Shown: positions 34,346 to 54,220 of the stretch, piece by piece
Position numbering within the stretch: position 1 is the first letter of the stretch
Layout of the letters: every line of letters begins with the position of its first letter
Assembly: GCF_900114315.1 (NCBI RefSeq)
Contig: NZ_FOSQ01000006.1
Coordinates: 1 to 64,000 of the forward strand
Reading direction: 5' to 3'
Origin: Falsiroseomonas stagni DSM 19981
Lineage (GTDB): Bacteria; Pseudomonadota; Alphaproteobacteria; Acetobacterales; Acetobacteraceae
Length of the DNA stretch: 64,000 bases
Notes under the pieces: generated by a model
The model's database searches: none
What the model was told of the DNA's origin: nothing
Seen by the model: only the letters and a program-made list of their open reading frames with translations
Program-made: the position numbers and the translations under genes

Positions 34346-35480
34346 GATGAGCAAGCTGGACGCGCTGCTGCGCGAGGCGGAAGTGACGGAGAGCGGTGCC
34401 TACCAGGATGCGCGGCGCCAGATGGCGGTGTGCAATGCCTGCCGGTATTGCGAAGGCTATTGCGCCGTCTTCCCGGCGATGGCGGCGCGGCGGGAATTCG
34501 CGACGGCGGACCTCACGCACCTCGCCAATCTCTGCCATGGGTGCAAGGGCTGCTACCACGCCTGCCAGTACGCGCCGCCGCACGCCTTCGCCATCAACAT
34601 CCCCGCCACCTTCGCGACCATCCGGCAGGAAAGCTACGCGCAATACGCCTGGCCGCCGGCGATGGGGCGCGCCTTCGAGAAGAACGGCACCGTCGTCGTC
34701 GCCGTCGCCACACTGTTCGTGACGCTGGCGCTGCTGCTGGCGGTGGCGCTGGTCGATCCGTCCCGGCTGTGGACCGCGCAGACGGGCACGGGGGCCTTCT
34801 TCCGCATCATCCCGCTCTGGCTGATCAACACGCTGGCGGGTGCAAGCTTCGGCTTCGCGATCCTGGCCATGGCGATGGGCGCGCTGCGCTACCTGAAGGG
34901 CACCGGGGGGCTGGGCGGGCCGATCGCGCCGGCGCCCGTGGCGGATGCCGCGGTGGATGTGCTGACGCTGCGGAACCTGGGCGGTGGCGGGCATGGCTGC
35001 AACGATGTGGATGACAGCTTCGCCCAGCAGCGGCGCTGGCTGCACCAGGCGATGTTCTACGGCTTCATGCTGTGCTTCGCGGCGACAACGACGGGCGCCA
35101 TCTACCACCATGTCTTCGGCTGGAAGTCGCCCCACGCCTTCCTGAGCCTGCCCGTGCAGCTCGGCACCTGGGGCGGCGTGCTGCTGTGCATCGGCACGGC
35201 GGGGCTGATGCGCGTGAAGGTGATCACCGATCCCGTGCCGGTGGCGCGCAAGCTGCTGGGCGGCGAATTCGCGATGCTCGGCCTGCTGTTCCTGATCGGG
35301 TCGACGGGCCTGCTGCTGCTGGCGGTCCGGCATACCGGCGCCATGGGCTGCATGCTGGCCCTGCATTTCGGCCTGGTTCTCGCGCTGTTCGTCGTGCTGC
35401 CCTACAGCAAGATGGTGCATGGCGTGTATCGCGGCATCGCGCTGCTGCGGAATGCGCGGGAGCGGCGGGCGCGCGGCTAG
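34332..35480 (+). CDS. tcuB: Tricarballylate utilisation protein B (Fe-S membrane electron carrier)
   Basis: A 382-residue membrane protein that reoxidises TcuA. Two CxxCxxCxxxC ferredoxin-type sites use Cys34, 37, 40, 44 and Cys68, 71, 74, 78. About six membrane helices follow from residue 117, with several His that could hold heme. Electrons probably pass to quinone. The overlap with tcuA supports coupled synthesis. Its stop codon shares bases with the stop of the convergent bilin reductase gene (35477-35480), the edge of the light/gas-vesicle island. Confidence 0.88.
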   Translation: MSATEMSKLDALLREAEVTESGAYQDARRQMAVCNACRYCEGYCAVFPAMAARREFATADLTHLANLCHGCKGCYHACQYAPPHAFAINIPATFATIRQESYAQYAWPPAMGRAFEKNGTVVVAVATLFVTLALLLAVALVDPSRLWTAQTGTGAFFRIIPLWLINTLAGASFGFAILAMAMGALRYLKGTGGLGGPIAPAPVADAAVDVLTLRNLGGGGHGCNDVDDSFAQQRRWLHQAMFYGFMLCFAATTTGAIYHHVFGWKSPHAFLSLPVQLGTWGGVLLCIGTAGLMRVKVITDPVPVARKLLGGEFAMLGLLFLIGSTGLLLLAVRHTGAMGCMLALHFGLVLALFVVLPYSKMVHGVYRGIALLRNARERRARG

Positions 35481-36190
35481 GCGGTTTCCACCGCCGGCAC
35501 GGGCGGGAAGAGGCATTCCGCGATGAAGGCATCGGCGAGGTCCACGCCGATGCAGCCGGCCAGCATGCGGCGCGTGCGGTCGTTGCGGCGCTGGCCCTCG
35601 ATGTAGCGGGCCTGCGCCGCGGCCATGGTGGCGGCGTCGCATCGCGCAATGGGCGTGGCGGCGACAAGCTGCGCGAGGGTTTCGGCGCCGAGGGCAAGGC
35701 CGGCCTCGAAGGCCGCGGCATCGCCGGGCCGCACGGCGACAACGCGCGGGGAGAAGATGGCCGTCCATTCCGGCAGGATGCGGGAGGCGCCAAGCGCGCC
35801 GCGCCGCGGTTCCATCCCATCGGCCCAGGCCGCGATCAGCGGATCGGCCTCCTGCACCGTCGGCGACAGGTCGAGGAAGCAGCCGGTGGCGCGATCCTGG
35901 CCGGCGATGACATCGAAGCCGTAGATCGGCAGCGCCTGGTCGAGATGCGGGAAGGCGCAGGCATGCAGCACCGCGATCTCACCGGGGATGGCGAAGTATT
36001 CGACATGGAGGCGGCGCAGCGTGGCCGTGCGGACCACCGTGTTGCGCCAGGCGATGGGGCGGCGCAGCGTGCCTTCCGATACGGCGCGGGCCAGCCAATC
36101 CTCCATCGGCAGGCTGCGCGCGCCGGGCAGCGCGGCGGCGGTGGCGGCCAGCGCATCGGCCGCCGCTTCCAGGCGCTGCAGAAGGGACAT
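35477..36190 (-). CDS. pcyA: PcyA-type ferredoxin-dependent bilin reductase
   Basis: A 237-residue protein of the ferredoxin-dependent bilin reductase family, which reduces biliverdin to a phytobilin. Glu64 (HVEYFAI), His76 (AVLHACAFP) and Asp93 (YGFDVIAG) lie at spacings of 12 and 17, exactly those of catalytic Glu76, His88 and Asp105 of cyanobacterial PcyA. The C-terminal QRRNDRTRRMLAGCIG helix is also conserved. Keeping both Glu and His points to phycocyanobilin rather than phycoerythrobilin. It lies 3 bp after the heme oxygenase gene. Such enzymes are rare outside oxygenic phototrophs. Confidence 0.85.
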   Translation of the reverse strand: MSLLQRLEAAADALAATAAALPGARSLPMEDWLARAVSEGTLRRPIAWRNTVVRTATLRRLHVEYFAIPGEIAVLHACAFPHLDQALPIYGFDVIAGQDRATGCFLDLSPTVQEADPLIAAWADGMEPRRGALGASRILPEWTAIFSPRVVAVRPGDAAAFEAGLALGAETLAQLVAATPIARCDAATMAAAQARYIEGQRRNDRTRRMLAGCIGVDLADAFIAECLFPPVPAVETA

Positions 36191-36193
36191 GGA

Positions 36194-36829
36194 TCAGGCG
36201 CCCGCAACCCAGCGATCCAGCCTGTCGAAGGCGTGCCGGGCCGCGGCGATGACGGCGTCCGGATCGAATTGCGCGGCTTCCGCCCCCTCATCCAGCGCCA
36301 GGCGGAAATCGCGCCAGAGCGTGCCGGTCTCCGCCCCATGCGGCACGACATGGGCGGCGCCGGCGGCGGGACCGATGCCGAGCGTGGCTTGCAGATGACG
36401 TGCGATGAGCTGGCCGCCCAGCGTCGAGCCTTCGAGCACGTAGAGCGCGCCAAGCGCCTGTTCCACGCTGCGGATGACGAACGCCTCGCAGCGCGGCAGG
36501 GCGGCGATGTCGTCTGGCGCGAAGCCGAGCGCGCTGAGATCCGCGGCAAGCGCCGCGCGGCGGTTCAGGCGGCGGTGCAGCGCCAGGCAGGCCGGCAGCC
36601 GATGCGCCATGCCCTCCAGCGCGGCTTCGAGAGGCGCGTAATGGCCATGCAGGCGCGCCACCAGTCGGCGGTATTCCGCCAGGGTCAGGTCGGGCGCCAT
36701 GAGGCGCGCGAAGCGGGCATTCGCCTCGATCCTGTCGTGCAGGTCGCGGGTTTCCTGCCTCAGGCGGAGCGTCAGCGGCGGGGCCAGGGCCGGAAAGACC
36801 GGGGCTTCCGCCAGTGCCATGGACATCAT
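36194..36829 (-). CDS. bphO: Heme oxygenase (biliverdin-forming)
   Basis: A 211-residue heme oxygenase. The proximal heme ligand is His31 (TRDLHDRIE), and the distal helix carries YVLEGSTLGGQLIARHL (130-146). It opens heme to biliverdin with electrons from ferredoxin. The product feeds the PcyA-type reductase immediately downstream and the phytochrome encoded 1.2 kb upstream. The ATG at 36829 overlaps the stop of the signalling-protein gene (ATGA). Confidence 0.9.
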   Translation of the reverse strand: MMSMALAEAPVFPALAPPLTLRLRQETRDLHDRIEANARFARLMAPDLTLAEYRRLVARLHGHYAPLEAALEGMAHRLPACLALHRRLNRRAALAADLSALGFAPDDIAALPRCEAFVIRSVEQALGALYVLEGSTLGGQLIARHLQATLGIGPAAGAAHVVPHGAETGTLWRDFRLALDEGAEAAQFDPDAVIAAARHAFDRLDRWVAGA

Positions 36830-37743
36830 GTCAGCGCCTTCTGCGTTTCGATCGTGGCGGTCAGCAGGCCCTCGCGGTTGCGCACCACGCCTTCGGCGGA
36901 GACGGTGAGCGTGTCGAGCGACCGGGTGAGCTGGACATAGGCCTCCCCCGTCTCGCTGATCGCGAGTTGCATGCGCGTGATCACATCGTTCACGCCGGCC
37001 ATCATGGTCGCGGCCTCGACGGTCTGCTTGCAGCCATCGCCGATGCGGTCCGCGAGGGATTTCTGGCGGTTGAGGAGGTCCGTCAGCGTGGCGGTGGCGC
37101 CATGCACCGCACCGACGATGGCGCCGAAATCCGCCTGGACACCGCGAGTGGCGGCGACGAGGTCGCGCAACCGGGATTCGATGTTGGCACTGAGCGTCCC
37201 GGCCTCCCCCGCCAGCACCTTCACCTCCTGCGCGATGACGGCGAAGCCGGCGCCGTGCTGGCCGGCGCGCGTCGCCTCGATCCTCGCGTTCAGGGACAGC
37301 AGGTTGGTCTGGGCGGAGATCTTGTTGATGCCGCGGAGGAACTCCCCGATCGTGCCGAAGGTGGAAACCAGCGCGTCGATCGAGGTCGCACCGGCGGCGG
37401 CGCGGGTCTCCGCATCCTCCGCCTGGGCGCGGGCCGTATCGGTCAGGCTCGTCATATCCCGCGTCGACGCCAGCAGGGCCTCTCCCGCTGCCTGGGAGCG
37501 CTGCAGGAAGTCCGACGTCTCCGCCGCGCTGACGGAAAGCGAGCAGGCCTCCATCATCGTGCCTTCGAGCGTGTTGGAGAGCTTGGCCCCCGCATCCCGG
37601 ATGACCGCGCATTCCGCCAGCACGCGGGAGGACAGGAAGTCGAGCCGGGAGAAATCCTTCTCCCCTTCGGGCCGGGGCTTGCCGCGGCGGTCATTCACCA
37701 CCGCGGAACCCTCGGCACCGGCAACCATCGACATGCCGTCCAT
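36826..37743 (-). CDS. Soluble chemoreceptor-like signalling protein
   Basis: A 305-residue protein without membrane helix, HAMP or known sensor domain. It has the MCP signalling hairpin: the tip INKISAQTNLLSLNARIEAT (140-159) and the following AGQHGAGFAVIAQEVKVLAGE match the CheA/CheW-contacting region. The N-terminal 100 residues are helical and unassigned. The arms are short compared with full chemoreceptors. It sits between the STAS gene and heme oxygenase, so it may pass a light signal from the phytochrome or STAS protein to a CheA-type or other partner. That role is inferred. Confidence 0.82.
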   Translation of the reverse strand: MDGMSMVAGAEGSAVVNDRRGKPRPEGEKDFSRLDFLSSRVLAECAVIRDAGAKLSNTLEGTMMEACSLSVSAAETSDFLQRSQAAGEALLASTRDMTSLTDTARAQAEDAETRAAAGATSIDALVSTFGTIGEFLRGINKISAQTNLLSLNARIEATRAGQHGAGFAVIAQEVKVLAGEAGTLSANIESRLRDLVAATRGVQADFGAIVGAVHGATATLTDLLNRQKSLADRIGDGCKQTVEAATMMAGVNDVITRMQLAISETGEAYVQLTRSLDTLTVSAEGVVRNREGLLTATIETQKALT

Positions 37744-37761: not shown

Positions 37762-38073
37762 CTACTGGATCTGCAGCACCTTGCCGAGATTGGCCTTGTG
37801 CATCAGGGACAGCACCGCCGGGTTGGCATTGACGATGCCGACGGACTTGTTCTTCGACTTCGCCGTGTGGCTGAGCATCATCAGCATGCCGGCGCTCGCG
37901 GCCTCCATGCTCTGGACACCCGCGAAGTCGAGGCGGATCTGCGTGACCGCGCCGTTGGCGAGCACGGGTTCGAGCTGCTGCTTCAGCGTCGCCTGGCTCA
38001 TGCTGTCGAGCACGCCGCGAAGCGTGACGGAGGCCTGCGAACCGCTGGCCTGGACGGAGACATTGATGGACAT
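37762..38073 (-). CDS. STAS-domain protein (anti-sigma-factor-antagonist fold)
   Basis: A 103-residue single STAS domain. The strand-turn-helix VTQIRLDFAGVQSMEAASAGML holds Ser60 at the site phosphorylated in SpoIIAA-like proteins (ASAG here, SSAG in many homologues). It starts at ATG 38073, 11 bp after the phytochrome stop. STAS domains work as phosphorylation-dependent binding switches. The kinase and partner are not encoded in the window. A role as output relay of the kinase-less phytochrome is suggested by the gene order only. Confidence 0.82.
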   Translation of the reverse strand: MSINVSVQASGSQASVTLRGVLDSMSQATLKQQLEPVLANGAVTQIRLDFAGVQSMEAASAGMLMMLSHTAKSKNKSVGIVNANPAVLSLMHKANLGKVLQIQ

Positions 38074-38084
38074 GGCGGGTCTCC

Positions 38085-39923
38085 TCAGGCCAGGGAATGC
38101 CAGCGGCTGCCGGGGGCGGCAGGCAGCGTGGCCGGCAGGGTGCCCGCGCCGCGCGGGGCGAAGAGATCGGCTTCCGAACGGACATCGACCACAACGGGAT
38201 CGCCGGGCTGGTCGGAGGCGGGGGCGGAGACGCCCCGCGCCTGGCGCGACCAGATGTCGCCGATCGCGCTGGCGAATTGCGCGGCGAGGAGAATCTCCTG
38301 GTCCAGCCACGGACGCGACGCGCCGGCCAGCGGCGCGCGATGCGCGGCGAAATCGTCGCGGGGCCTGAACATCTTCTCGCTGTTCAACTCCGCCGCGCTC
38401 GGCGGGCGGCCGGCCCAGACGGCATCGACGATGCGTTCGCGACGGAACCACATGATCATGTCGCCGCGGTGGCCGATGGGGGCGGCGAGCAGGCCGCTGG
38501 CCACCGCGCGCAGTTCCGGGCCTGCCGGGGTGTAGTCGCCCAGCGCATCAGTGGCGAAGACGCGCCATTCAGAACTGTCGAAGCTGGGCAGGCGGGATCC
38601 GAAGAGGGAGGCGATGCCGCGCACCGTCAGCGCATCCGGCGTCGCGCCGACCAGATGGACATGCCCGGCAGGACCGGCGCGCAGCACGGCCGCGCCATCC
38701 GCATCCGCAAGGCGCAGCAGGTCGGAGGAGAAGCGGTCCTCCGCCCGCCCCGCCGCCGCGACCTCCACCCCGCTGATCGAGACATAGGTGGGCGCGAGCG
38801 CCGCGACATGGCGGGACACCGCATGCATCGCATGCAGTCTTGCGCTGGTCAGGTGGTCGCCGCGCATCGCCGCCGCGGCGGCGAGCATGGCCTGGCTGCC
38901 ATCGACGGTCGCGATCATCTCGGCGCTCAGCCGCTGGCGATCCGCAATGCGGGCTTCCTGCGCCTCCAGCTCCACGAGGCGGGAGGCGAACATCATGGTG
39001 AGCTGTTCGATGACCGCGCGGCTGTCGTAGTTCAGGAACTTCTCGTCCTTGTTGTGGACGACGAAGAGGCCCCAGACATTGTTGTCGATGTTGACGGGGA
39101 AGATGATGTTGCTGCCGACGCCAAGGTTGCGGTTGTAGCCGTTGTCGCAGGGATGGATGCCGCGCAGCCAGCAATCCGTCATGTCGACGGCATCGCCGCT
39201 CGGCACCGGTTCGCCACCGCTTCCCATGGTCAGCAGGGGCACGGATCCGCGTTGCGTCGGCTTCTGGCGGGTCTTGCCGGTACGCAGGATCTCCTTCGCA
39301 TTCTCCGGCACATCGGAGGCGGAGAAGTGATAGCCGAGGAAGGAATGCGGCAGCTTGCTGTCCGGCGCATGGAACTCCGCGGCGACAACGCCGTGCCCAT
39401 GGGCGAGGAAGCGGTAGAGCTTCACGCGGTCATACCGCGTGACGAAGTGCATCATCTTCGCCGCGGCCTCGAACAGCCCCTGCACGGTGGTCTGGCGGGC
39501 GACGGCATCAAGGGCCGTCGCGACCATCGTCTGGTAGTCGTGCTCGGCCTCCACATAGGGCTCGATCTCGATGAAGAGGCGGCCTTCGCGGATGTGGCAG
39601 ATGGCCTCGAACCGCCTGCCCTGCGCGACGAGTTGCGTCGGGTTGTCGAAGTAGCGGCGCCCAGGGCGCAGGATCTCCCCGATCCTGGCGAGGCTTTCGC
39701 CATCGCGGAAGGCGACGGCGGGCGAGTGGCCGAGCACCGCCTGCGGCGGGATGCCGAGGATGTCCTGCACATTGGCGCTGACATGCTCGACGATGCCGGT
39801 CTCCGGCACCACCACCATCATCACGCCATGCGGCTGGACGGAGCCGATGCGCGCGAGCGGCAGTGCATCATGCTCGCAGGGCGTGGGGCGCCCGTTCCAG
39901 ATATGTGCTCGGATGCTCGCCAT
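38085..39923 (-). CDS. bphP: Phytochrome photoreceptor without kinase domain (BrBphP3-like)
   Basis: A 612-residue PAS-GAF-PHY photosensor. The PAS domain starts with Cys16 and GSVQPHGVMMVV. The GAF domain has FSASDVP (200-206) and IHPCDNGYNRNLGVG, where Cys259 occupies the phytobilin-attachment position of Cph1 and Asp260 replaces the usual His. The PHY tongue has VWAGRPPS and PRDDF. After PHY only about 60 residues remain, with no histidine kinase. ATG 39923 gives the normal N-terminus. PCB synthesis genes follow, so a phycocyanobilin chromophore on Cys259 is expected, as in Bradyrhizobium BrBphP3. Confidence 0.9.
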   Translation of the reverse strand: MASIRAHIWNGRPTPCEHDALPLARIGSVQPHGVMMVVVPETGIVEHVSANVQDILGIPPQAVLGHSPAVAFRDGESLARIGEILRPGRRYFDNPTQLVAQGRRFEAICHIREGRLFIEIEPYVEAEHDYQTMVATALDAVARQTTVQGLFEAAAKMMHFVTRYDRVKLYRFLAHGHGVVAAEFHAPDSKLPHSFLGYHFSASDVPENAKEILRTGKTRQKPTQRGSVPLLTMGSGGEPVPSGDAVDMTDCWLRGIHPCDNGYNRNLGVGSNIIFPVNIDNNVWGLFVVHNKDEKFLNYDSRAVIEQLTMMFASRLVELEAQEARIADRQRLSAEMIATVDGSQAMLAAAAAMRGDHLTSARLHAMHAVSRHVAALAPTYVSISGVEVAAAGRAEDRFSSDLLRLADADGAAVLRAGPAGHVHLVGATPDALTVRGIASLFGSRLPSFDSSEWRVFATDALGDYTPAGPELRAVASGLLAAPIGHRGDMIMWFRRERIVDAVWAGRPPSAAELNSEKMFRPRDDFAAHRAPLAGASRPWLDQEILLAAQFASAIGDIWSRQARGVSAPASDQPGDPVVVDVRSEADLFAPRGAGTLPATLPAAPGSRWHSLA

Positions 39924-40183
39924 GCGTCGGCTTCCCTTCTCGGCCCTGCCACGTGGACATCCGTGGACGTCACACCAACGCCCGGCGGCATCGCCCGGCA
40001 TCCCGTCAGCGACGGTGGCCGCCGCCATCATGGCGAGAGGAGACTTAAGGATCGGTTCCCAGTGGGGTACCGCGACGTCGCATCGCATGAATTCGCGGCA
40101 AAGTGCCTGCAAGACTGCCAGGATGGGAAGCGAACTGCCCTGTCCCGCATCTTCACGAAGGCGAAACCACTGCCCTGCTAGCC
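39924..40183. promoter_or_regulatory. Divergent control region of bphP operon and gas-vesicle operon
   Basis: A 260-bp region between the two divergent units. Near the bphP end it has the 10-bp direct repeat GTGGACATCC / GTGGACGTCA (39953-39972) and an overlapping CCACGTGG palindrome. Farther right a purine-rich GAGAGGAGACTTAAGGA patch (about 40040) precedes the first gas-vesicle-cluster gene. No convincing -35/-10 pair was found. Shared control of light sensing and flotation genes is inferred. Confidence 0.5.
39954..39967 (+). promoter_or_regulatory. Operator-like 14-mer shared with the tcuA upstream region
   Basis: TGGACATCCGTGGA differs at one base from TGGACATCGGTGGA at 32889-32902. Both lie in short divergent intergenic regions and both belong to 10-bp TGGA direct repeats. 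This suggests a common regulator, possibly the GntR protein encoded at 32152. Confidence 0.45.
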
Positions 40184-40954
40184 ATGCTGCTAGGCCCGGC
40201 GATCAAGGCGGGCCGCAAGTGGCAGGAGGCCACGGCGCGCATGGAATTCGGCACGCGGAGCATCCGGTCCTCCGGGCAGGGCAGCGGCAGCGTGGAGGTC
40301 ACGCTGCCCCCGGCGTTCCGCGGCCTGGCGGGCCTGGCCTGCCGCGTGGCGCTGCGTGACGGGTTGCGCCCCGAACTGGTGCTGCAGCCGGACCTGGCGG
40401 CGGCGCGCGCGGCGTTCGGGCGCCTCTGGACATTGCTCGCCGAAGCCATGGATTTCGAGGGTGGCGCCGTGCCGCTGGCGGAATGCGCGATCACCCTGTG
40501 GCCGACGGCGGAAGCGCCGGGCGCCATGCCCCGGCTGGCCTGGGCCGATGGGCTGGCGCTGGCGGGGCCGGCGCCGCACGCGGCTTCGGCCCTGGCGCGC
40601 AGCGTGGCGGCGCTGGCGCAGCTGGCGGCGCGTCGGCGCGGGATCGCACCGGGGCTGGCCACGGATTTCGGCGCGGCCAGCGGCCATGCGCTGGGCGGGA
40701 TCGTCGTGCATCCCGCGCTGCAGTCGGCCTGCGACATCGGTACCGCCCTGCTGGCGGCCGGCGGCTTCGCGCCCGACGCGGCACTGTCGCTGGCGGCGGA
40801 GGATGCGGTGAGTGGTGGCTTCCGCGATGCAGCGCTGCCGCGCCTGGCATTGCTGGCGGAACAGCATCTGGACTGGACCGACGATCCCGCGCGCCACGCC
40901 GCCGTGGTGATGGCCTGGCGGCGCGGCGTCGCGCTTGAACTCAGCGGAGCATGA
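40184..40954 (+). CDS. Unrecognised first gene of the gas-vesicle operon
   Basis: A 256-residue soluble protein that I do not recognise. It is rich in Ala, Leu and Arg, mostly helical, with a beta-rich patch SGSVEVTLPPAFRGLAGLACRVALRDG near residues 35-60 and an aromatic C-terminal WRRGVALELSGA. No signal peptide, membrane helix or cofactor motif. ATG 40184 was chosen; the frame is open to 40103 upstream. Its stop overlaps the gvpN start (ATGA), so it belongs to the gas-vesicle operon. An accessory role in vesicle formation is inferred. Confidence 0.65.
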   Translation: MLLGPAIKAGRKWQEATARMEFGTRSIRSSGQGSGSVEVTLPPAFRGLAGLACRVALRDGLRPELVLQPDLAAARAAFGRLWTLLAEAMDFEGGAVPLAECAITLWPTAEAPGAMPRLAWADGLALAGPAPHAASALARSVAALAQLAARRRGIAPGLATDFGAASGHALGGIVVHPALQSACDIGTALLAAGGFAPDAALSLAAEDAVSGGFRDAALPRLALLAEQHLDWTDDPARHAAVVMAWRRGVALELSGA

Positions 40955-41919
40955 AGAGCATGGCGCGTCCCCAACCCGCAGCGGCGGCGGAATCGGAGGG
41001 GCTGCTGCAGTTGCAGCCGGGCCCCGACCATGTGCGCACGCCGGCGACGGAAAGGCTGGCGGCGCGCGCGCTCGCCTATCTGGATGCCGGGTTTCCCGTG
41101 CATTTCCGGGGACCGGCGGGCAGCGGCAAGACCAAGACGGCGCTCGACCTGGCGGACCGGCTCGGGCGCCCGGTGCTGCTGCTGGTGGGCGATGCCAGCT
41201 TCGACACGGCGGCGCTGGTCGGCCGTGAATCCGGCAGCCGCACGCGGCGCGTGGTCGACCGCTACATCACAAGCGTGATGAAGGTGGAGACGGAGACGGT
41301 GCCGGTCTGGCTGGATCGCGCGCTGACGGTCGCCTGCACCGAAGGCTGCACGCTGGTCTATGACGAATTCAACCGCGCGCCGCCGGCCGCCAACAATGTG
41401 CTGCTGACGGTGCTGGAGGAACGCGTGCTGGCGCTGCCCAAGGCGCGCGGCAGCGACACCGCGATCCGCGTGCATCCGAATTTCCGCGCCATCTTCACCT
41501 CCAACCCCGAGGACCATGCAGGGACGGAGGAGGCGCAGGATGCGCTGCTGGACCGGATGGTGACCATCGACCTCGATGGCTTCGACCGGGACACGGAAGT
41601 GGCGATCGCGGTGGCGCGGTCGGGGCTCGATCCCGACCAGGCCGGGCGGATCGTGGACCTGGTGCGCGATTTCCGCATCTCCCGCGAATGGACGCGCCGG
41701 CCGACCTTGCGCGCCTCCGTGATGATCGCGCGGCTGACGAAGGCGCAGGGGATCGACGCCTCGGCCGAGGAGGAGCGCTTCGTGGAGATCGTGCTGGATG
41801 TGCTGGGCAGCCGGGTGAAGCCATCGGTGGCCGGCGTGCCGGACCCCAAGCACCGGCAGATGCTGGTGCGGCTGGTGGAGCATTTCTGCGGGCCGCGTGT
41901 GGCCGGGCCGGTGGTGTGA
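40951..41919 (+). CDS. gvpN: Gas vesicle AAA ATPase GvpN
   Basis: A 322-residue MoxR-type AAA ATPase. Walker A is GPAGSGKT (54-61), Walker B is LVYDEFNRAPPAANN, the sensor-1 region is FTSNPEDHAG, and the arginine-finger region follows in QDALLDRMVTIDLDGFD. These are GvpN signatures. GvpN widens young vesicles during growth and is needed for full-size gas vesicles. The ATG at 40951 overlaps the preceding stop; ATG 40960 is an alternative. Confidence 0.93.
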   Translation: MKSMARPQPAAAAESEGLLQLQPGPDHVRTPATERLAARALAYLDAGFPVHFRGPAGSGKTKTALDLADRLGRPVLLLVGDASFDTAALVGRESGSRTRRVVDRYITSVMKVETETVPVWLDRALTVACTEGCTLVYDEFNRAPPAANNVLLTVLEERVLALPKARGSDTAIRVHPNFRAIFTSNPEDHAGTEEAQDALLDRMVTIDLDGFDRDTEVAIAVARSGLDPDQAGRIVDLVRDFRISREWTRRPTLRASVMIARLTKAQGIDASAEEERFVEIVLDVLGSRVKPSVAGVPDPKHRQMLVRLVEHFCGPRVAGPVV

Positions 41920-44111: not shown

Positions 44112-44354
44112 ATGGGCATCCTGCGCACGCTGCTGACCCTGCCGATCGCCGCCCCCATCGGCGGCATCGGCTGGGTGGCGAACCAGGTGGCGCAGGCGGT
44201 GGACCAGCAATGGCACGATCCGCGCCGGGTGGAGGCCGCGCTGCTGGCGCTGGAACGCAGGCTGGAAGCGGGCGAGATCACGGAGGAGCAGTTCGAGGCC
44301 GCGGAGGCCGAGCAGCTGGCGGAACTCGCCGCGATCCGGGCTGCGCGGGGATGA
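44112..44354 (+). CDS. gvpG: Gas vesicle protein GvpG
   Basis: An 80-residue GvpG protein. The N-terminus has a hydrophobic LRTLLTLPIAAPIGGIGWVANQV segment, followed by the family helix with LALERRLEAGEITEEQFEAAEAEQL. GvpG is a small accessory protein essential in several clusters, usually beside gvpF as here. Its stop overlaps the start of the AAA ATPase gene. Confidence 0.9.
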   Translation: MGILRTLLTLPIAAPIGGIGWVANQVAQAVDQQWHDPRRVEAALLALERRLEAGEITEEQFEAAEAEQLAELAAIRAARG

Positions 44355-47394: not shown

Positions 47395-48137
47395 TGGAGG
47401 CGCTCTACGCCTATGCGGTCGTGCCGCCGGAGACGGCGCTGCCGAGCGATGTCGAGGCGATCCTGCCGGGCGCGGGCTTCTTCCTGGTGCGGGCGGGCGG
47501 CTGTGCCGCGCTGGCGAGCCGGGTGGCGCGGGCACCCTTCGAGCCCGGGCCGGGCTGCCGCGGGAATGATCCCGCCTGGGTCGCCGAACGCGCGGCGGCG
47601 CATCACGCCGTCGTCGCCTCGCTGCCGGGGGCGGTGCTGCCGCTGGCCTTCGGGGCGCTGTTCTCCGGCGAGGAACCGCTGGCCGCCTGGCTGGCGGCGC
47701 GGGAGGAGGCGCTGCTGGCGGCACTGGCGCAGGTGGAGGGCTGCGCGGAATGTACCGCGAAGCTGGAGGAAGACCCGGCGCGCCACGCCGCCTGGCTGGA
47801 CGCGCATGACGAGAACCTGCGCGACCTGGCGCGGCGCGCGCGGGACGCGGCGGCGGGCACGGCCTTCCTGCTGGCCCGGTCGCGCGACAAGCGGCTGGCG
47901 GAAGCGCGCGCGGCACGCGCGGCGATGATGGCGCGGGATGTCGCGGCCAGGCTCGGCCGGCATGCGCATCTGATGCCGGAGCCGATGACGGCGCTGGTGC
48001 GGCGCGCCGACATGCCCGCGCTGATGGAGGACCTGGCCGAGGCAGCGCGGGAGCTGGACGGTTCGGGGATTGCGCTGCGGCTGGTGGGGCCCTGGCCGCC
48101 CTACGCCTATGCGCGGGCGGCGCTGTCGCATGCGTGA
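47394..48137 (+). CDS. gvpL: Gas vesicle protein GvpL/GvpF family
   Basis: A 247-residue GvpF/L protein. It starts LYAYAVVP, has the GAVLPLAFGALFSGEEPLAAWL linker, a helical GCAECTAKLEED region and the C-terminal signature LVGPWPPYAYARAAL. The ATG overlaps the preceding stop by one base and the stop overlaps the next start. The letter L is by position. It probably binds shell proteins during assembly. Confidence 0.88.
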   Translation: MEALYAYAVVPPETALPSDVEAILPGAGFFLVRAGGCAALASRVARAPFEPGPGCRGNDPAWVAERAAAHHAVVASLPGAVLPLAFGALFSGEEPLAAWLAAREEALLAALAQVEGCAECTAKLEEDPARHAAWLDAHDENLRDLARRARDAAAGTAFLLARSRDKRLAEARAARAAMMARDVAARLGRHAHLMPEPMTALVRRADMPALMEDLAEAARELDGSGIALRLVGPWPPYAYARAALSHA

Positions 48138-48351
48138 CGGGCTGAAGGCGCCGCTGCCGCCGCTGGGGGCGGAACCCCAGGCGCTGGTCGATGTGCTGGA
48201 CCGGCTGCTGGACACCGGCGTGGTGGTGGACGGGCAGATCGTGCTGTCGCTGGCGGGCGTGGACCTCGTGCATGTCGGGCTGCGGGCGCTGCTCGCTTCC
48301 GTCGACCGCGCGGCCTGCCTGACCACGGCGCGGCCGGAGGGGATGCGATGA
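48130..48351 (+). CDS. Small GvpA-fold protein (GvpM/GvpS-like)
   Basis: A 73-residue protein with the GvpA fold: ALVDVLDRLLDTGVVVDGQIVLSLAGVDLVHVGLRALLASVD (about 18-59). It has a Pro-rich N-terminus and a short tail. The position directly before gvpK fits GvpM or GvpS, minor nucleation proteins. It has VDLVHVGLRAL where GvpA has hydrophobic-charged shell residues, so it is not the main shell protein. It overlaps both neighbours. Confidence 0.82.
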   Translation: MRDGLKAPLPPLGAEPQALVDVLDRLLDTGVVVDGQIVLSLAGVDLVHVGLRALLASVDRAACLTTARPEGMR

Positions 48352-48674
48352 TCGGATGGCAGGAACCGCCGCTGCGGGAGGCACCACCCCTGGTGCAGCC
48401 GCTGGAGCCCCTGGCGCGCATCGCGCTCGATCCCGCCACCATCGAACAGGACCTCGCCCGCCTGGTGCTGACGCTTGTCGAACTGGTGCGCCGGCTGATG
48501 GAAGGCCAGGCGCTGCGGCGGCTGGAGGCCGGCACGGTGACGGCGGAGGAGGCGGAGCGGCTCGGCCTTGGCCTGATGCAACTGCGCGGCGCGGTGGAGA
48601 CGCTGTGCGACCGGCTGGGCATCCGGCCGGAGGAACTGAACCTTGATCTCGGCCCGCTGGGCCGTCTGCTCTGA
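48348..48674 (+). CDS. gvpK: Gas vesicle protein GvpK
   Basis: A 108-residue GvpK protein. The core IALDPATIEQDLARLVLTLVELVRRLMEGQALRRLEAG and the following ERLGLGLMQLRGAVETLCDRLGI are strongly conserved in the family, as is the closing NLDLGPLG. GvpK is an essential accessory protein. The next gene, for the large coiled-coil protein, starts 12 bp after its stop. Confidence 0.93.
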   Translation: MIGWQEPPLREAPPLVQPLEPLARIALDPATIEQDLARLVLTLVELVRRLMEGQALRRLEAGTVTAEEAERLGLGLMQLRGAVETLCDRLGIRPEELNLDLGPLGRLL

Positions 48675-48686: not shown

Positions 48687-51275
48687 ATGCGGGTTCCCGG
48701 CGGGACGGATTTGGGGCGCTGGCTGGCGGGCGGGACGGCGCTGGCCAGCGCGGCGCTGCTGGGCTGGGCGGTGCTGCGGCCGCAGCCGGTGATGCCGGCG
48801 GGCGGGACCATGGCGGCGGCCGATCCGGCCGCGCTGGTGGCGGCGCTGACGGCGGGGGACCGCGGCGCGCTGGTGGATGACCTGCGCGGCGTGGCGGCGC
48901 TGCTGCAGGGCGCGGACCTGCCGCTGCCGGCGCGCGTCGCGCGCGCCAGGCTGGAAGCGGTGGCGGCGGCGGAGGACCGGCGGGCGCAGGAAGCGCCGCC
49001 CGCCCTGGTGCTGACATCGCTGGTGCAGCGGCTGGACGGCACCGTGGCGGCGCTGCGCGAACAGGGGCGATCCGGCCCCGTGGACCTGCGGCTGCTGCTG
49101 GCGGCGGGGCTGGCGCTGGCGGCGGCGCTGGCCGCGCTGGCCGGCGGCGCGGCGCGCGATGCGGCGCGAGGCCATGCGGCGGGCGACCAGGCGGCGATCG
49201 GCAACGCCCTGGCCAGCGCGCAGGATTCCGCACGGCAGATGGAGGCCCTGGCGCGGGGGACCGAAGCGCGGCTCGGCACCTCCGCCGCGCGCATCGACCG
49301 CGCGGGCGAGGGTCTGGAAGCGCTGCTCGCCCGGCTTCAGGCGGCAGGGGATGCCGCGCCGCCGGCGGAGGCGATGCGGGCGGCGGTCGCGGCCGTGGCC
49401 GCGACGCTGGCGGAGGAAGCCGCGCAGGCCCGCGCCGTGATGACGCGGATCGCCGAGGAGACGGAGGCCCGGGCGGAGGCGGCGGCGGCCCGGCTGGAAG
49501 CGCGCGTGGCCGCGGCGACGGAGACGGTGGCGGCGGAAGTGCTGCGCCAGGGGGAGGAAGCGGCCGCGCGGGTGGAAGACACCATCACGCCCCTCGCGGT
49601 GCGGCTGGAAGCGGTGCTGGCCAGCAGCCGCGTGGAGGGCGCCGGGCGCGCCGCCTGGCTGGAGGAAGCGCTGGCGGCGCTTCCCGCGCAGACCGGCGCG
49701 CAGGTCGCCGCGATGCTGGCACCGCGGCTGGAGGAAGGCCGCGTGACCCTGGCCGTGGCGGCGGAGCGCCTGGAAGGCGGCATGGTGGCCCTGCCCGGGT
49801 TGGTGGGGGAGCGTGTGGAGACGGCGCTGCTGGCCACCCTGCCCGCCCCGCTGGGCGACAAGGTCGCCGACATGCTGGCCCCCCGGCTGGAGGAAGGGCG
49901 CCTGGCCCTGGCCGTGGCGGCGGAACGCCTGGAAGCGGGCATGGTCGCGCTGCCAGGACAGGTGGGCGACCGGGTGGAGGCGGCGCTGCTGGGCGCTTCC
50001 GCCGCGCAGGGCGCGGAGGTCTCGGCCGCGGTGGCCGAAAGGCTGGCGGAGCGGGTCGGCGCCGGGCTCGCCGCGCTGCCGGGCGCGATCGCGGACCGGG
50101 TGAAGGCCGGCCTGGCAACGGCGACGGCGGCGCAGGGCGTCGCGGTGGCCGACGCTGTCTCGATCGTGGTGACGGAGCGGCTGGAGGCGGCCACGGCCAC
50201 GCAGGCGGAGGCCGTGACGGCCGCCCTGACGGGTGTTGTCGAGGGCGCCCTGGCGGAGGCGCTGGCGGGCCTTCCCGGGGCCGTGGCGGCACGGATGGAG
50301 CCGGCCCTGGCGGCGGCTGGCGTGGCGCAGGCCGGGGCCGTTTCCGCGGCCCTGGCGGACCGGCTGGCGGCACTGCCGGCGGCCGTCGCCGAACGTCTGG
50401 AGGCAGGCGGCGCGGCGACTGGGGACCGGCTGGAGGCCGGGCTCTCCGCGCTGGAAGGGCTACCGGGGCGTATCGGGGACGCGCTGGACCAGCGGCTGGA
50501 GGACAGCCTCTCGGCCCAGGCATCGGCGCTGTCGGCCGCCGTGGCGGAACAGTTGGAGACGGGCCTGGGCGCGCTGCCGGCCCTGATGGCGGACGAGGTC
50601 GCGGGCCAGGTGGCGGCGGCGCTCGCGGCGCCGGCCGCGCGGCTGGAAGGGCTGGCGGAGGCGACGGCGGCGGCGGGCGCGACCGTCACGGCGGCGGCGA
50701 CCGACCTCGCCGGGCGCCTGGCGCGGGAGGCGGAGGCGGAAGCCGCGTCCCGCACCCGGGCGACCGGGGAACTGGTGGCGCTGGCCACGCAGTTGACGCA
50801 GGCCGCCGGCACGGCGCGGGAGCGGATGGAGGAGAGCGCCGGCGCGGTGGAGGCCGCGGCAAGGCTGATGCAGGACGCCACCCGGCCGGGGCAGGAGGTG
50901 GTGGCGGAACTGGCTCGCCAGGTGGTGACGCTGCGCGACCTGGCGACTCCCCCGCCCCCGGCGGAGGGTGCGGCAGGGCGGCTGATGGCGGCCATGGCAG
51001 GCCAGGACGCGCCGCCGGCACTGCATCACGCGCTGGACCACCTGGGCGCGGTGGGGCGTTCGGCATCCGCCCTGCTGGCGGCGGCGGAGAGCCTGGCGGA
51101 GGCCAGCGCAGGGCCCGTGCCCCCTGCCCTGCCCGCGGCCTTCGGCGCGGAGACGCCGGCCCTGCTGGACAGCCTCGGCACCGTCATCGGGCAGCTTGAA
51201 GCGGTGGCGACGGCGCTGGCGCTGGCGAGCGATGCGGCCGGCGCCGCGCCGGCCGCGCCAGCCCGCGCGGCATGA
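48687..51275 (+). CDS. Large membrane-anchored coiled-coil protein of unknown function
   Basis: An 862-residue protein that I do not recognise. Two hydrophobic segments (about 12-30 and 134-153) bracket a region of about 100 residues, probably periplasmic. About 700 Ala/Glu/Arg/Leu-rich residues follow, predicted as long coiled coil in the cytoplasm. This is the topology of a chemoreceptor, but the signalling tip is absent. Within the coil a 53-residue unit starting MLAPRLEEGR occurs at 343 and 396, with weaker copies (EAGL-ALPG-RV pattern) beyond. It follows gvpK by 12 bp. A membrane anchor or scaffold for vesicles is speculation. Confidence 0.7.
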   Translation: MRVPGGTDLGRWLAGGTALASAALLGWAVLRPQPVMPAGGTMAAADPAALVAALTAGDRGALVDDLRGVAALLQGADLPLPARVARARLEAVAAAEDRRAQEAPPALVLTSLVQRLDGTVAALREQGRSGPVDLRLLLAAGLALAAALAALAGGAARDAARGHAAGDQAAIGNALASAQDSARQMEALARGTEARLGTSAARIDRAGEGLEALLARLQAAGDAAPPAEAMRAAVAAVAATLAEEAAQARAVMTRIAEETEARAEAAAARLEARVAAATETVAAEVLRQGEEAAARVEDTITPLAVRLEAVLASSRVEGAGRAAWLEEALAALPAQTGAQVAAMLAPRLEEGRVTLAVAAERLEGGMVALPGLVGERVETALLATLPAPLGDKVADMLAPRLEEGRLALAVAAERLEAGMVALPGQVGDRVEAALLGASAAQGAEVSAAVAERLAERVGAGLAALPGAIADRVKAGLATATAAQGVAVADAVSIVVTERLEAATATQAEAVTAALTGVVEGALAEALAGLPGAVAARMEPALAAAGVAQAGAVSAALADRLAALPAAVAERLEAGGAATGDRLEAGLSALEGLPGRIGDALDQRLEDSLSAQASALSAAVAEQLETGLGALPALMADEVAGQVAAALAAPAARLEGLAEATAAAGATVTAAATDLAGRLAREAEAEAASRTRATGELVALATQLTQAAGTARERMEESAGAVEAAARLMQDATRPGQEVVAELARQVVTLRDLATPPPPAEGAAGRLMAAMAGQDAPPALHHALDHLGAVGRSASALLAAAESLAEASAGPVPPALPAAFGAETPALLDSLGTVIGQLEAVATALALASDAAGAAPAAPARAA
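49713..50030 (+). repeat. Two 159-bp tandem coding repeats in the coiled-coil gene
   Basis: The units 49713-49871 and 49872-50030 encode 53-residue repeats that begin MLAPRLEEGR and continue AVAAERLE.GMVALPG.VG.RVE.ALL. They are also similar at DNA level, suggesting recent tandem duplication. Weaker, older copies continue downstream to about 50600. Confidence 0.75.
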
Positions 51276-51383: not shown

Positions 51384-51878
51384 ATGGTGTCAGTGGCGAT
51401 CCTGGACCAGGCCGGCACCGCAGGGCCGCCCGCCCCGCGGGAAGCCGATACGGCCATACGGCCGGTGACGCTGCGGGTCAGCGGCGCGAAGCCGGTGCGG
51501 CTGCGCGGCAGGCTGCTGACCGGGGGCCATTCCCGCGCGACGGGCTGCATCGCCTGGCATGAGGTCGAGGTCTGGCAGATCGCGGGATCGCGGGAGGTCG
51601 CGGTGGCGCTGCGCACCCACCGTCCGGACGGGGACGCGGCCGATGTGCACCGCGCGGAGCTGTTCCCGGACCTGGCGGAGGCGCTGGACTGGCTGGAGGC
51701 CTTCGACCCGCTCGCTGACCTCAGCGTGGATTTCGATGCCTCCGACCGGCGGCTGTCCGGCGTGGAGGTGGCGCTGCGCGCGGCGGCGCTGCGCGGGCGG
51801 GCGGAGGTGGTGACGCGCGAATGGCGCGCGCTGCTGGGCGAGGTGCTGTTCGTGCTGGACGCGGATACCCCGGCATGA
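51384..51878 (+). CDS. Gas-vesicle-cluster paralogue 1 of an unrecognised family
   Basis: A 164-residue soluble protein. It shares with the next two genes a pattern of RLRGRLL near residue 37, a WHEVEVWQ strand, a variable loop, then EALDWLEAFDPLADLSVD and a C-terminal helix (AALRGRAEVVTREWRALLGEVLF). The core looks beta-rich, about 70 residues, followed by helices. AGGAGG at 51372-51377 precedes ATG 51384 with ideal spacing, so it may head a sub-operon. No known domain recognised. Confidence 0.7.
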   Translation: MVSVAILDQAGTAGPPAPREADTAIRPVTLRVSGAKPVRLRGRLLTGGHSRATGCIAWHEVEVWQIAGSREVAVALRTHRPDGDAADVHRAELFPDLAEALDWLEAFDPLADLSVDFDASDRRLSGVEVALRAAALRGRAEVVTREWRALLGEVLFVLDADTPA

Positions 51879-52384
51879 CGGCGCCGGAGGCCGGGATGGC
51901 GGAGGAAGCCGCCGGCTTCGACTTCATCCTGCTGCCGCGCCACGGGCGCCGGCCACTCGGCTTCCAGGGACGGTTGCTGGCGCGGATGGAGGCGGCACCG
52001 CCGGACCTGCCGGTGGCGTCCTGCGTCACGCTGCATGAGGCAGCTTCCGGCGGCTTCGTCTGCGCCATCCGCCACCGGCTGCGGGATGCGGCGGGGGCGG
52101 AGGAGCGCTGCTACGCGCTGGCGGCGGGCGATGCGCCGACGCTGCTGCGCTTCCTGCACGGCCACGACCCGCTGCGGGACCTGCCGCCGGCGGCGCTGGT
52201 GCCGCAGGCCGCAGCGCCAGGCCCTTCCCGCGCCGCGCTGGCAGAAGCGGCAAGCGTGGCGCCCCGGCTGCGCGCCGTGTGGCGGGACCTGCTGGCGGCG
52301 AGCTTCGGCCCGCTGGCGGCACCGGCGGATCCCATGCCGGAGAACGACCCAGGCCGGACGGCATCCCGCCATCCCGCCCCCTGA
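51875..52384 (+). CDS. Gas-vesicle-cluster paralogue 2 of an unrecognised family
   Basis: A 169-residue soluble protein, the most divergent of the three paralogues. RRPLGFQGRLLARM aligns with the first strand, LHEAASGGFVCAIRHRL with the WHE strand and hairpin, and LLRFLHGHDPLRDLP with the helix-turn after the core. The WHE tryptophan is replaced by Leu here. It has a Pro-rich tail absent from the others. ATG 51875 overlaps the stop of paralogue 1. Confidence 0.68.
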   Translation: MTAPEAGMAEEAAGFDFILLPRHGRRPLGFQGRLLARMEAAPPDLPVASCVTLHEAASGGFVCAIRHRLRDAAGAEERCYALAAGDAPTLLRFLHGHDPLRDLPPAALVPQAAAPGPSRAALAEAASVAPRLRAVWRDLLAASFGPLAAPADPMPENDPGRTASRHPAP

Positions 52385-52395
52385 GGAGAACCACG

Positions 52396-52938
52396 ATGAA
52401 CGTCATCAATGTGCATGAGCCCATCGGCGTCTACGAGGCGTATGGGGTCGATGAGAAGGTGAGCCTGCGGGACCCGGCGCCAGCCTTCGCGCGCGCCGGC
52501 CTGGCGCGCGCCGACCGGCCGGCGGCGGCAGGCAGCTTCACGCTGCGCCGCAGCGGCGCGCGGCCATTGAGCTTCACGGGCCGCCTGGTCAGCCACCACA
52601 GCGGTGAACGCGCGGGCGCGAACCAGTGGCATGAGCTGCGGCTGTACGAGACGGATGAAGGCGGCTTCGTCGCCGATATCCGCGTGCTGGGGGAGACGCA
52701 TGGCAATGCCGGGCAGTTCCATGTCGCCACCTTCAACGAGCTGGAGGAGGCGCTGCGCTTCTTCGAGACGCATGACGCGCGGCGCGACGTGGTGAGCGAC
52801 ATCCCGATCGAGGATGCGGGGCTGTCCCCGGCGGAGCTGATGGTGCATGCGGCGACGCTGAAGGTGCGCTTGGCGGAAGCGGTGTCGGGCTACCGCGCCG
52901 TGCTGTCCGCCTTCCTGACGGCGATGCATCGGTCCTGA
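52396..52938 (+). CDS. Gas-vesicle-cluster paralogue 3 of an unrecognised family
   Basis: A 180-residue soluble protein, third member of the tandem family. The core is RPLSFTGRLVSHH, QWHELRLYETDEGGFVADIRVLGE and LEEALRFFETHDARRDV (about 57-135), followed by a helical AATLKVRLAEAVSGYRAVLSAFL tail. It has an extra N-terminal segment (NVINVHEPIGVYEAYGVDEKV). GAGGAG precedes ATG 52396. It is the last gene before the gvpA promoter region. Function unknown; by position a gas-vesicle accessory or regulator. Confidence 0.7.
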   Translation: MNVINVHEPIGVYEAYGVDEKVSLRDPAPAFARAGLARADRPAAAGSFTLRRSGARPLSFTGRLVSHHSGERAGANQWHELRLYETDEGGFVADIRVLGETHGNAGQFHVATFNELEEALRFFETHDARRDVVSDIPIEDAGLSPAELMVHAATLKVRLAEAVSGYRAVLSAFLTAMHRS

Positions 52939-53111: not shown

Positions 53112-53330
53112 ATGACCATCAACAAGAGCCTCGCATCCTCCTCCCTGGCCGAGGTGATCGACCGCATCCTCGACAAGGGTGTCGTCGTCGACGCCTTCAT
53201 CCGCGTGGCGCTGGTGGGCATCGAGCTCATCGCCATCGAGATCCGCGCGGTGGTGGCCTCCGTCGAGACCTACCTGAAGTATGCTGAGGCAGTGGGCCTG
53301 ACGACCGACCCCGCCGCGGCCGCGGCCTGA
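53112..53330 (+). CDS. gvpA: Major gas vesicle shell protein GvpA
   Basis: A 72-residue protein of near-canonical GvpA sequence: [56 protein letters not shown]. It forms the ribbed gas-permeable wall. It has the two amphipathic beta strands and the helix with DRILDKG. It is far from gvpN (12 kb) and has its own upstream gap, fitting high, separate expression. ATG 53112 is preceded by GGAG at 53101-53104. Confidence 0.95.
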
Positions 53331-53347
53331 CGCGCGCCGCGCGCGCC

Positions 53348-54220
53348 GTGACGGTGGAACGGGAACAGGCGGCGCGCGGCCTGGGTGGCCGCGCGGCGCT
53401 GGAAGCCTACCGGGCCGCGCGCGTGGCCCAGCGCGGCGATCTGCGCGCCGCGCTGCGGGCGAACCGGGAGGCGCTGCGCGCCGCCCGGGTGCTGCCCGCC
53501 GGCGCGAAGACGCCCGACAGCGCCACGGATACCGTGGCCGACGCGCCCGCGCCGCCGGTCCTGGCGGCGCCGGCGGCACCGCGATCCGTCTTCGCCAGCC
53601 TGGTGGAGGCGGAGCGCGCCCTGGCGCCACCGGAACCGCTTCCACCGACGGTGGCGGAGGTCCCGCTGCCCGTCGAGGACCATGCGGCGCCGGCGGCGGA
53701 GCCGATGGTGACGGACATTCCAGCGGCCGAGGCGGCTGCGGCGGAGAGCCCCATCGCCGATGGTCCGCCGGACGGCGCGCTCATCGTCGCCAAGCCCGGC
53801 GTCATCGAGCCGAAAGTCGATGAGCCGGCTATCGATGAGCCGGTTGCCGATGAGCCCGTCATCGCGCAGCCCATCGCCGCTGAAGCCATCGGCGAGGATG
53901 CACCCACTGGCGACGACCCCATCGGCGTAGCGGCGATCGACGTATCGGCGGATGCACCGGCCGCGATCGACCTCGTTGCCGCGGCGGAGGTGCCACCGGA
54001 CGCACCGCCTGAAGAGCCGATGGCGCGCGCGACCACTGACCTCTCGGCGATCCGCGAACTCGGCCCCGGCATGCGCCACCGGCTGGCGCAGATCGGCTAT
54101 CACAATTGCGAAGACCTGGCGGCGGCGGACCCCGCGCGGCTGGCCCAGCAACTCGGCGAAGTCAGCCGGCTGCTGCGGCCGGAAAGCTGGATCGCCGCAG
54201 CGCGCGCCGCCATCGGCTGA
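53348..54220 (+). CDS. Helix-hairpin-helix protein with Pro/Ala/Glu-rich linker, next to gvpA
   Basis: A 290-residue protein starting at GTG 53348, 17 bp after gvpA. An N-terminal basic helical region (about 1-50) and a C-terminal helix-hairpin-helix module (IRELGPGMRHRLAQIGYHNCEDLAAADPARLAQQL, about 235-270) flank a long disordered linker rich in Ala, Pro, Glu, Asp and Ile with short imperfect repeats such as DEPAIDEPVADEPV. It occupies the place where gvpC follows gvpA in cyanobacteria, but lacks the 33-residue GvpC repeats. No ribosome site is obvious. Function unknown. Confidence 0.68.
   Translation: MTVEREQAARGLGGRAALEAYRAARVAQRGDLRAALRANREALRAARVLPAGAKTPDSATDTVADAPAPPVLAAPAAPRSVFASLVEAERALAPPEPLPPTVAEVPLPVEDHAAPAAEPMVTDIPAAEAAAAESPIADGPPDGALIVAKPGVIEPKVDEPAIDEPVADEPVIAQPIAAEAIGEDAPTGDDPIGVAAIDVSADAPAAIDLVAAAEVPPDAPPEEPMARATTDLSAIRELGPGMRHRLAQIGYHNCEDLAAADPARLAQQLGEVSRLLRPESWIAAARAAIG

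Follow-up and report, generated by a model that had tools for sequence, protein, structure and literature searches.

A phytochrome, STAS and chemoreceptor operon recurs together with gas-vesicle genes in Falsiroseomonas stagni and its relatives

Results

Organization of the locus

The first 64,000 nucleotides of contig NZ_FOSQ01000006.1 of Falsiroseomonas stagni DSM 19981 (assembly GCF_900114315.1; genome of 6.38 Mb), referred to here as the window, carry a five-gene light operon transcribed divergently from an adjoining gas-vesicle cluster, and the pairing of these two gene sets recurs among related genomes. Gene calls and Pfam place close-packed genes for a phytochrome, a STAS protein, a chemoreceptor signalling domain, a heme oxygenase and the bilin reductase PcyA on the minus strand at 35477-39923, while gene calls, Pfam and NCBIfam place the vesicle cluster, which includes GvpA, N, O, F/L, G and K, on the plus strand at 40184-54220. 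A first-pass annotation of this DNA had described a phytochrome, heme oxygenase and PcyA-type reductase divergent from gas-vesicle genes, and our own gene calls and Pfam matches confirm that arrangement. The joint presence of phytochrome, heme oxygenase and PcyA alongside gas-vesicle genes is the content of a BrBphP3-type island. No alaS gene is found among the five genes, PcyA abuts a convergent gene (g33), and Rfam and tRNA scans of the window returned no matches. Judged by the phytochrome in a scan of genome contigs, the nearest named relatives are Falsiroseomonas, Roseomonas ponticola and Paracraurococcus.

The light operon

On the evidence of its sequence the light operon looks functional. 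The phytochrome (38085..39923, minus strand) has the PAS-GAF-PHY architecture (PHY E=1.1e-26), and its PHY domain ends at residue 561 of 612, leaving a short tail in which Pfam detects no histidine kinase or other output domain. Cys259 aligns with Cys259 of Cph1 in the GAF domain and is invariant in all 10 phytochromes aligned, and from the protein family it is the predicted site of bilin attachment. Cys16 aligns with the N-terminal cysteine of a BphP1, a residue that binds biliverdin. The tail has a variable linker and then closes with SRW-x-S-(L/V) in six of the eight proteins from operons of this kind, the tryptophan being kept in all eight; this terminus is possibly a docking peptide.

The next gene encodes a single-domain STAS protein (37762..38073, minus strand; Pfam STAS_2 E=3.7e-18). 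The position of the phosphorylatable Ser58 of SpoIIAA is alanine in nine of nine aligned sequences, so the protein lacks the SpoIIAA-type serine and classical phospho-switching is unlikely. It is followed by a chemoreceptor of 305 aa (36826..37743, minus strand; Pfam MCPsignal E=5.2e-20) that consists of the MCP signalling hairpin only: Pfam finds no sensor domain, and with a highest 19-residue hydropathy mean of 1.28 no membrane segment is seen, indicating a soluble protein. The hairpin tip is conserved in alignment with the Thermotoga MCP 2ch7, and from its family the protein would be expected to couple to CheA/CheW.

The last two genes encode a heme oxygenase, which forms biliverdin from heme (36194..36829, minus strand; Pfam Heme_oxygenase E=1.2e-22), and the ferredoxin-dependent bilin reductase PcyA (35477..36190, minus strand; Pfam Fe_bilin_red E=9.5e-24). 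In alignment, Glu64, His76 and Asp93 of this PcyA occupy the places of Glu76, His88 and Asp105 of Synechocystis PcyA (2d1e), residues that PMC10151467 describes as critical, with Glu76 specific to PcyA enzymes. The window enzyme thus shares ferredoxin dependence and the catalytic Glu, His and Asp with the AX clade, which comprises alphaproteobacterial PcyA and phage PcyX; in PMC10151467 the alphaproteobacterial enzymes are regarded as a clade that branched early and has stereotyped loci. Together, the heme oxygenase and PcyA are predicted to synthesize phycocyanobilin (PCB).

Distribution of the five-gene operon

We call the gene order of the window (phytochrome, STAS, chemoreceptor, heme oxygenase, PcyA) type A. 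The scan of genome contigs, with overlapping weaker matches removed from the tblastn tables, found seven relatives at 68-94% identity, giving eight type-A genomes with the window; two of the nine loci returned were ordinary phytochromes at 24-28% identity and were not counted as relatives. Carriers include Falsiroseomonas algicola, F. selenitidurans, Paracraurococcus ruber and Roseomonas ponticola. The five-gene order is kept in all eight genomes, and all eight contain gvpA. In five of them, F. algicola and R. ponticola included, light and vesicle operons diverge from each other, the contig of F. selenitidurans breaking inside g39, the first vesicle gene. The genes flanking the operon differ among F. 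selenitidurans, the H1 metagenome-assembled genome (MAG) and P. ruber, which indicates several chromosomal settings. The constant gene order, the varied flanks and a pairing that holds even across contigs argue that the block forms one unit, which apparently need not be adjacent to gas-vesicle genes to be paired with them.

Broader surveys point the same way. Among 395 genomes drawn from the order, pcyA was found in 4 and gvpA in 15, with all four pcyA genomes among the 15 (Fisher p=1.4e-6, kinship not corrected); by genus the overlap is 2/84 within 8/84 (p=0.008). Within the genus, pcyA occurs in 6 of 15 genomes, those six also have gvpA and the other nine have neither, a count in which G1179, G1180 and G1181 are taken as G778, G777 and G776 on the basis of matching contig numbers and similar positions and sizes. 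A STAS profile run over 367 genomes of the family gave 12 matches, nine of them strong, and gvpA is present in all nine; of the three weaker matches (E 1e-4 to 5e-4), G195 has gvpA, and G1205 and G258 do not. The check on co-occurrence of pcyA, phytochrome, STAS and gvp genes that the first-pass annotation had proposed therefore returns a recurrent association, in eight of eight genomes with the five-gene operon and nine of nine with a strong STAS match.

In a draw of 385 genomes from the class, pcyA was found in three: the genome of the window, G685, and G743 with a match below the cut-off. Two PcyA-like genes (L114, L115) are present in G685, a distant MAG of the Alphaproteobacteria, and no relatives of the window genes were seen around them within the stretches read. 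A further draw of 397 genomes, from the order to which a Hyphomicrobium genome belongs, contained no pcyA match. Among 72,556 plasmid records none matched PcyA or STAS, the plasmid scans returning 130 and 134 records with ordinary phytochromes below 60% identity; 74 pattern stretches from viral contigs contained no relatives, and five phage records carried distant PcyA-like genes.

A second operon type and joint inheritance

Four of the nine genomes with a strong STAS match, from two genera (genus labels g52 and g43), carry a differently built operon that we call type B (L116, L136, L137, L138). Its order is phytochrome 1, STAS, heme oxygenase, phytochrome 2, a small coiled-coil gene, a gene like g53 of the vesicle cluster, and PcyA; it is seen in L136 and L138, while the ends of the contigs truncate it in L137 and L116. 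Phytochrome 1 has 605 aa (in L136), phytochrome 2 has 507 aa and the g53-like gene encodes 170-179 aa. PcyA is a complete gene call in L136, a tblastn match (E=5e-35) in L138 and cut by the contig end in L137; the contig of L116 ends inside the gene before PcyA, which probably explains why its genome (G376) scored negative for pcyA in the order draw. Overall, phytochrome and heme oxygenase are present in eight type-A and four type-B genomes of one family, with PcyA in 11 of the 12 (in G1256 in part).

Type B lies in or beside gas-vesicle clusters in two of four cases; the contigs of the other two do not extend far enough to reveal linkage. The operon of G1218 diverges from g39-gvpN, and g53-family genes and gvpA come after it on the same strand as the operon, whereas that of G1241 converges with the vesicle cluster. 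Compared with the profiles of g53 and g55, the g53-like gene scores 99.8% probability (E=7.5e-28, 143 columns compared), and the g39 family, used as a control, reaches 0.1%; by this profile comparison it is a paralogue of g53/g55. The light operon of a sister lineage thus includes a gene from a vesicle-cluster family. In three of the four type-B loci, all of one genus, phytochrome 1 has an MCP gene diverging from it, with a PilZ tail confirmed in L136. Each type-B operon contains two different kinase-less phytochromes, possibly forming a heterodimer or a two-color sensor.

In a GvpN tree of 17 rows the eight type-A genomes fall together (98/97), as do the three type-B genomes sampled (99/95). 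The light label requires two changes on this tree compared with 5.2 after shuffling (1 of 500 shuffles as low), a clustering that near-copies favor. The tree omits G018, G344, G195, G206 and G1256, for which GvpN was either not retrieved or was missing or incomplete in the stretch at hand, and G1258 is assumed to be D1_Bin_25 (G775). The branching within type A in a phytochrome tree is compatible with that of GvpN, bearing in mind that this tree (14 rows) is unrooted, has no outgroup and contains long branches that may meet. From the two trees, inheritance of the light genes was probably, in the main, joint with that of the vesicle genes.

A rival explanation is that mobile DNA once carried both gene sets along, in the distant past, and that they have no joint function. 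The differing chromosomal settings among related genomes are consistent with such hitch-hiking, and the pair in Bradyrhizobium sp. ORS278 is described in PMC3899966 as horizontally acquired. Against it, the pair persists where the two sets lie on different contigs (G342, G259, G775), the pairing is kept by two differently built operon types, and none of the 72,556 plasmid records matches PcyA or STAS. We therefore regard mere co-transfer as a decidedly doubtful explanation.

The divergent region

The DNA between the two operons (39924..40240) was aligned among five linked genomes and contains a single strongly conserved block, directly before g39. In the window this promoter-like element of the gas-vesicle operon (40150..40193, plus strand) consists of a TTCACG box followed by two GCTAG boxes at 40177-40193, and the GCTAG-type element resembles an alphaproteobacterial housekeeping promoter. 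Exact tandem GCTAG occurs 12 times in 31 sequences (546 kb), compared with 2 expected from single-base shuffles, and every copy stands before g39 (the window and L021, L042, L047, L052, L053, L054, L055, L056, L108, L138 and L143). In most of these loci a CTTMAC-like box is seen further upstream. A promoter and terminator scan of 39700-40300 found nothing.

The first-pass annotation had read the divergent region as 260 bp of shared control DNA. The gap between the called gene starts is indeed 260 bp, but the called start of g39 (40184) overlaps the conserved element, and the start seen in relatives corresponds to its codon 20 (40241); g39 therefore likely begins at 40241 and the control region probably spans about 317 bp. 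The region gives no sign of control by light. The tandem GCTAG marks the start of the gas-vesicle operon with or without a light operon, two of the carrier genomes having none, and 0 of 12 copies are oriented towards a phytochrome gene. Neither the alignments nor the element counts in the 31 sequences support a light-specific motif common to both sides. Since the element also precedes vesicle genes in genomes lacking the light operon, light-specific transcription is without support.

These observations bear on the proposal that light controls transcription of the gas-vesicle genes, with the STAS protein serving as the anti-anti-sigma factor of a partner-switching chain or with a regulator acting on the divergent region. 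One shared divergent region is present in five of eight type-A genomes and in the type-B genome G1218, the STAS protein resembles TM1442 and SpoIIAA, and the LOV-STAS protein YtvA of Bacillus is a precedent. In addition to the behavior of the element, this proposal must contend with the alanine at the Ser58 position, with the lack, in both operon types as far as they were read, of genes for a DNA-binding regulator or an anti-sigma kinase, and with the three type-A genomes in which the gene sets were not found adjacent. We consider transcriptional control by light rather unlikely.

Chemotaxis genes elsewhere in the genomes

CheW-domain matches are present in all eight type-A genomes. Four Che clusters were read in the genome of the window, which has further CheW-domain matches on contig C26, and in two of the four STAS genes precede CheY-CheA, one of these directly following a 360-aa MCP-signal gene. 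The proximity of STAS genes to CheY-CheA and to a small MCP gene makes a chain from STAS to receptor to CheA plausible. In G775 and G781 the sole CheW-domain matches belong to a CheA-CheW-CheY-CheB-CheR cluster that is also present in the genome of the window. No receptor gene was found in the stretch read around this cluster in the three genomes (L101, L102, L103; the contig of L103 ends in CheA), and the cluster is a candidate partner of the operon receptor. In L101 a histidine-phosphotransferase gene (Pfam) lies before CheA, and a similar-looking gene stands there in L102.

Another proposal is that the operon steers flagella only, in which case its link with gas vesicles would be ecological, both being useful to plankton, and would involve no molecular contact. 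The conserved hairpin tip, the region of flagellin and FlhA-type genes together with several Che clusters in the genome of the window, and the lack of any vesicle gene inside the type-A operon are consistent with pure phototaxis. It fits less well with the vesicle-cluster paralogue in the type-B operon, and in G775 and G781 the Che cluster has no flagellar genes in the stretch read, although flagella were not searched for in those two genomes. We think it improbable that phototaxis is the whole explanation.

The gas-vesicle cluster

The cluster comprises gvpN, gvpO, three GvpA-family genes, a GvpH-like gene, three GvpF/L genes, gvpG, gvpK, a Cdc48-type AAA gene and seven genes with no firm family (g39, g41, g52, g53, g54, g55 and g57), all on the plus strand. 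It begins with g39 (40184..40954 as called), which has no Pfam or NCBIfam match, and continues with gvpN (40960..41919; NCBIfam equivalog TIGR02640, E=2.7e-93, above cut-off), the small helical protein g41 (41919..42251; a gene call with relatives in other gas-vesicle clusters), gvpO (42264..42521; Pfam GvpO E=6e-21), the first GvpA-family paralogue (42526..42816; Pfam Gas_vesicle E=8.5e-17) and a GvpH or Hsp20-like gene (42921..43343; Pfam GvpH 1e-4, 22.9 bits against a cut-off of 22). These are followed by the first gvpF/L gene (43340..44104; Pfam E=2.9e-59), gvpG (44112..44354; Pfam E=5.1e-22), the Cdc48-type AAA ATPase (44351..46417; Pfam CDC48_N and AAA twice), a second gvpF/L gene (46414..47394; Pfam GvpL_GvpF 9.3e-9), a third (47394..48137; Pfam E=2.6e-35), the second GvpA-family paralogue (48130..48351; Pfam E=7.4e-15) and gvpK (48393..48674; Pfam E=4e-30).

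The remainder is occupied by g52 (48687..51275), the genes g53, g54 and g55 (51384..52938), gvpA (53112..53330; Pfam E=2.2e-15), which is the probable main shell protein and is 100% identical in G118, and g57 (53348..54220). The very long, alanine-rich helical protein g52 has a weak Apolipoprotein match in Pfam below cut-off and a fast-changing middle, and is also found in the clusters L044 and L049, which have no light operon. The g57 protein has a helix-hairpin-helix-like tail (Pfam HHH matches below cut-off), and its C-terminal part is conserved in other gas-vesicle clusters. Structure models were too poor to interpret for g55 (mean pLDDT 52.8) and g39 (37.4), and a fold search with the g55 model found no match at E<=0.001, the best being 0.12.

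Several of these genes had been put forward in the first-pass annotation as a missing link between light and flotation, and the outcome is mixed. The J-domain gene amounts to a weak match in the tail of the second gvpF/L protein (DnaJ 19.7 bits, below the Pfam cut-off of 27.8). The novel paralogues are real in that g53, g54 and g55 form one family by alignment, with no Pfam or NCBIfam match, and g39, g41, g52 and g57 are further genes of no firm family. Ten gas-vesicle genomes have no light operon, and the regions were read in eight of them (G018 and G344 being left out, and the type-B loci L047 and L048 of G376 not being counted as light-less). Each of Cdc48, the GvpF/L protein with the J-like tail, g39, g41, g53-g55 and g57 is present in at least one such cluster, Cdc48 for example in L040, L041 and L049/L050. 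They are therefore vesicle genes and not additions for light, and we reject the idea that Cdc48, the J-like tail or g53-g55 provides the link to light in the window. The STAS and chemoreceptor genes, being part of the light operon, stand as candidates.

Discussion

The recurring pair of light genes and gas-vesicle genes is supported by the observations above, and the interpretation of the island as a light-to-buoyancy system is partly supported. We tentatively favor, with somewhat less than even confidence, a scheme in which a light module signals from phytochrome to STAS to the sensor-less receptor and on to CheA, and is paired with gas vesicles for the choice of depth. The five minus-strand genes would constitute a self-contained light-sensing module in which heme oxygenase and PcyA make phycocyanobilin, and the phytochrome would bind it at Cys259 and switch in light. 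Because the phytochrome has no kinase, its signal is most likely passed by protein contact. We infer, from gene neighborhood, that the phytochrome might contact STAS and that STAS might pass the signal to the chemoreceptor, which could then feed CheA/CheW complexes whose genes lie at other places in the genome. Inheritance of the module with gas vesicles may have come about because of a common purpose, namely choice of depth in a lit water column by swimming through the Che route combined with flotation.

A number of observations weigh against this scheme. In three of eight type-A genomes (L057, L058, L059) the sequence read upstream of the phytochrome, 3.4, 4.9 and 10 kb long, holds no vesicle gene, the gvpA matches of these genomes being on other contigs. 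Of the 15 genomes with gas vesicles in the order draw, ten lack both pcyA and a STAS profile match, so vesicles do not need the operon, and G206, which has gas vesicles and no light operon, is of the same genus as type B. The nine genomes with strong STAS matches are related (five genera), and their counts are therefore not independent. G685 is a PcyA-bearing genome beyond the family and outside the gvpA counts. With respect to the signalling route, the operon STAS is little like the STAS proteins of the Che clusters (by alignment, with no score computed), the 360-aa MCP scores lowest of seven receptors compared with the operon receptor, and the 29 kb contig of the type-B genome G1218 showed no chemoreceptor.

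An extended form of the scheme would have the phytochrome act through STAS and the receptor and also directly, by a non-transcriptional route, on the vesicles via the g53 family, so that swimming and flotation are jointly set. STAS is the constant neighbor of the phytochrome in both operon types, with the sensor-less receptor present in type A, and the type-B paralogue hints that the g53 family could be a post-translational point of contact with the vesicle machinery. We consider this joint form, with its putative effect of the light module on the vesicles, conceivable, if unlikely.

The favored scheme, signalling through STAS and the receptor to CheA, resembles known photosensory systems in part. 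LOV-STAS YtvA and the stressosome likewise pair a photosensor with a STAS domain; in the window, by contrast, STAS is a separate gene, its Ser58 position is alanine and the operon has no RsbT-like kinase. Cyanobacterial phototaxis receptors of the PixJ type link a bilin light sensor to an MCP signalling domain, whereas here the two are distinct proteins, and a STAS gene separates the gene of the sensor from that of the MCP. The 2007 study of BrBphP3 reportedly described a short C-terminal region with no known domain, in which it would be like the window phytochrome.

The closest described relative is the BrBphP3 island of Bradyrhizobium sp. ORS278, and the kinship proposed in the first-pass annotation holds for the kinds of genes, ORS278 being compared through published descriptions. 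In PMC3899966, BrBphP3 (BRADO1262) lies on an island with phycocyanobilin and gas-vesicle genes and has PCB as its chromophore, and PMC11480375 gives hemO-pcyA-alaS with bphP. Both islands thus combine phytochrome, heme oxygenase and PcyA with gas-vesicle genes; they differ in the alaS gene, which is beside hemO-pcyA in ORS278 and is not in the window operon. PMC11480375 calls ORS278 the sole alphaproteobacterium with such an island, to its authors' knowledge, in contrast to the 12 genomes of one family described here. Among work that mentions gas vesicles and Roseomonas, PMC11089705 concerns the vesicles of Microcystis. A literature search covering mostly papers available without subscription found no paper joining phytochrome, STAS domain and chemotaxis in a gene cluster, and no published account of the signal output of kinase-less PCB phytochromes of the BrBphP3 kind.

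The system of the window is of a known kind, the ORS278 BrBphP3 island, in what may be a wider form, with STAS, a chemoreceptor and a second operon type. Its conserved partners name candidates for the output of these phytochromes: STAS and the chemoreceptor in type A, and STAS and a gas-vesicle paralogue in type B. Through them, both the output of kinase-less phytochromes and light-controlled buoyancy become testable in bacteria beyond the cyanobacteria.

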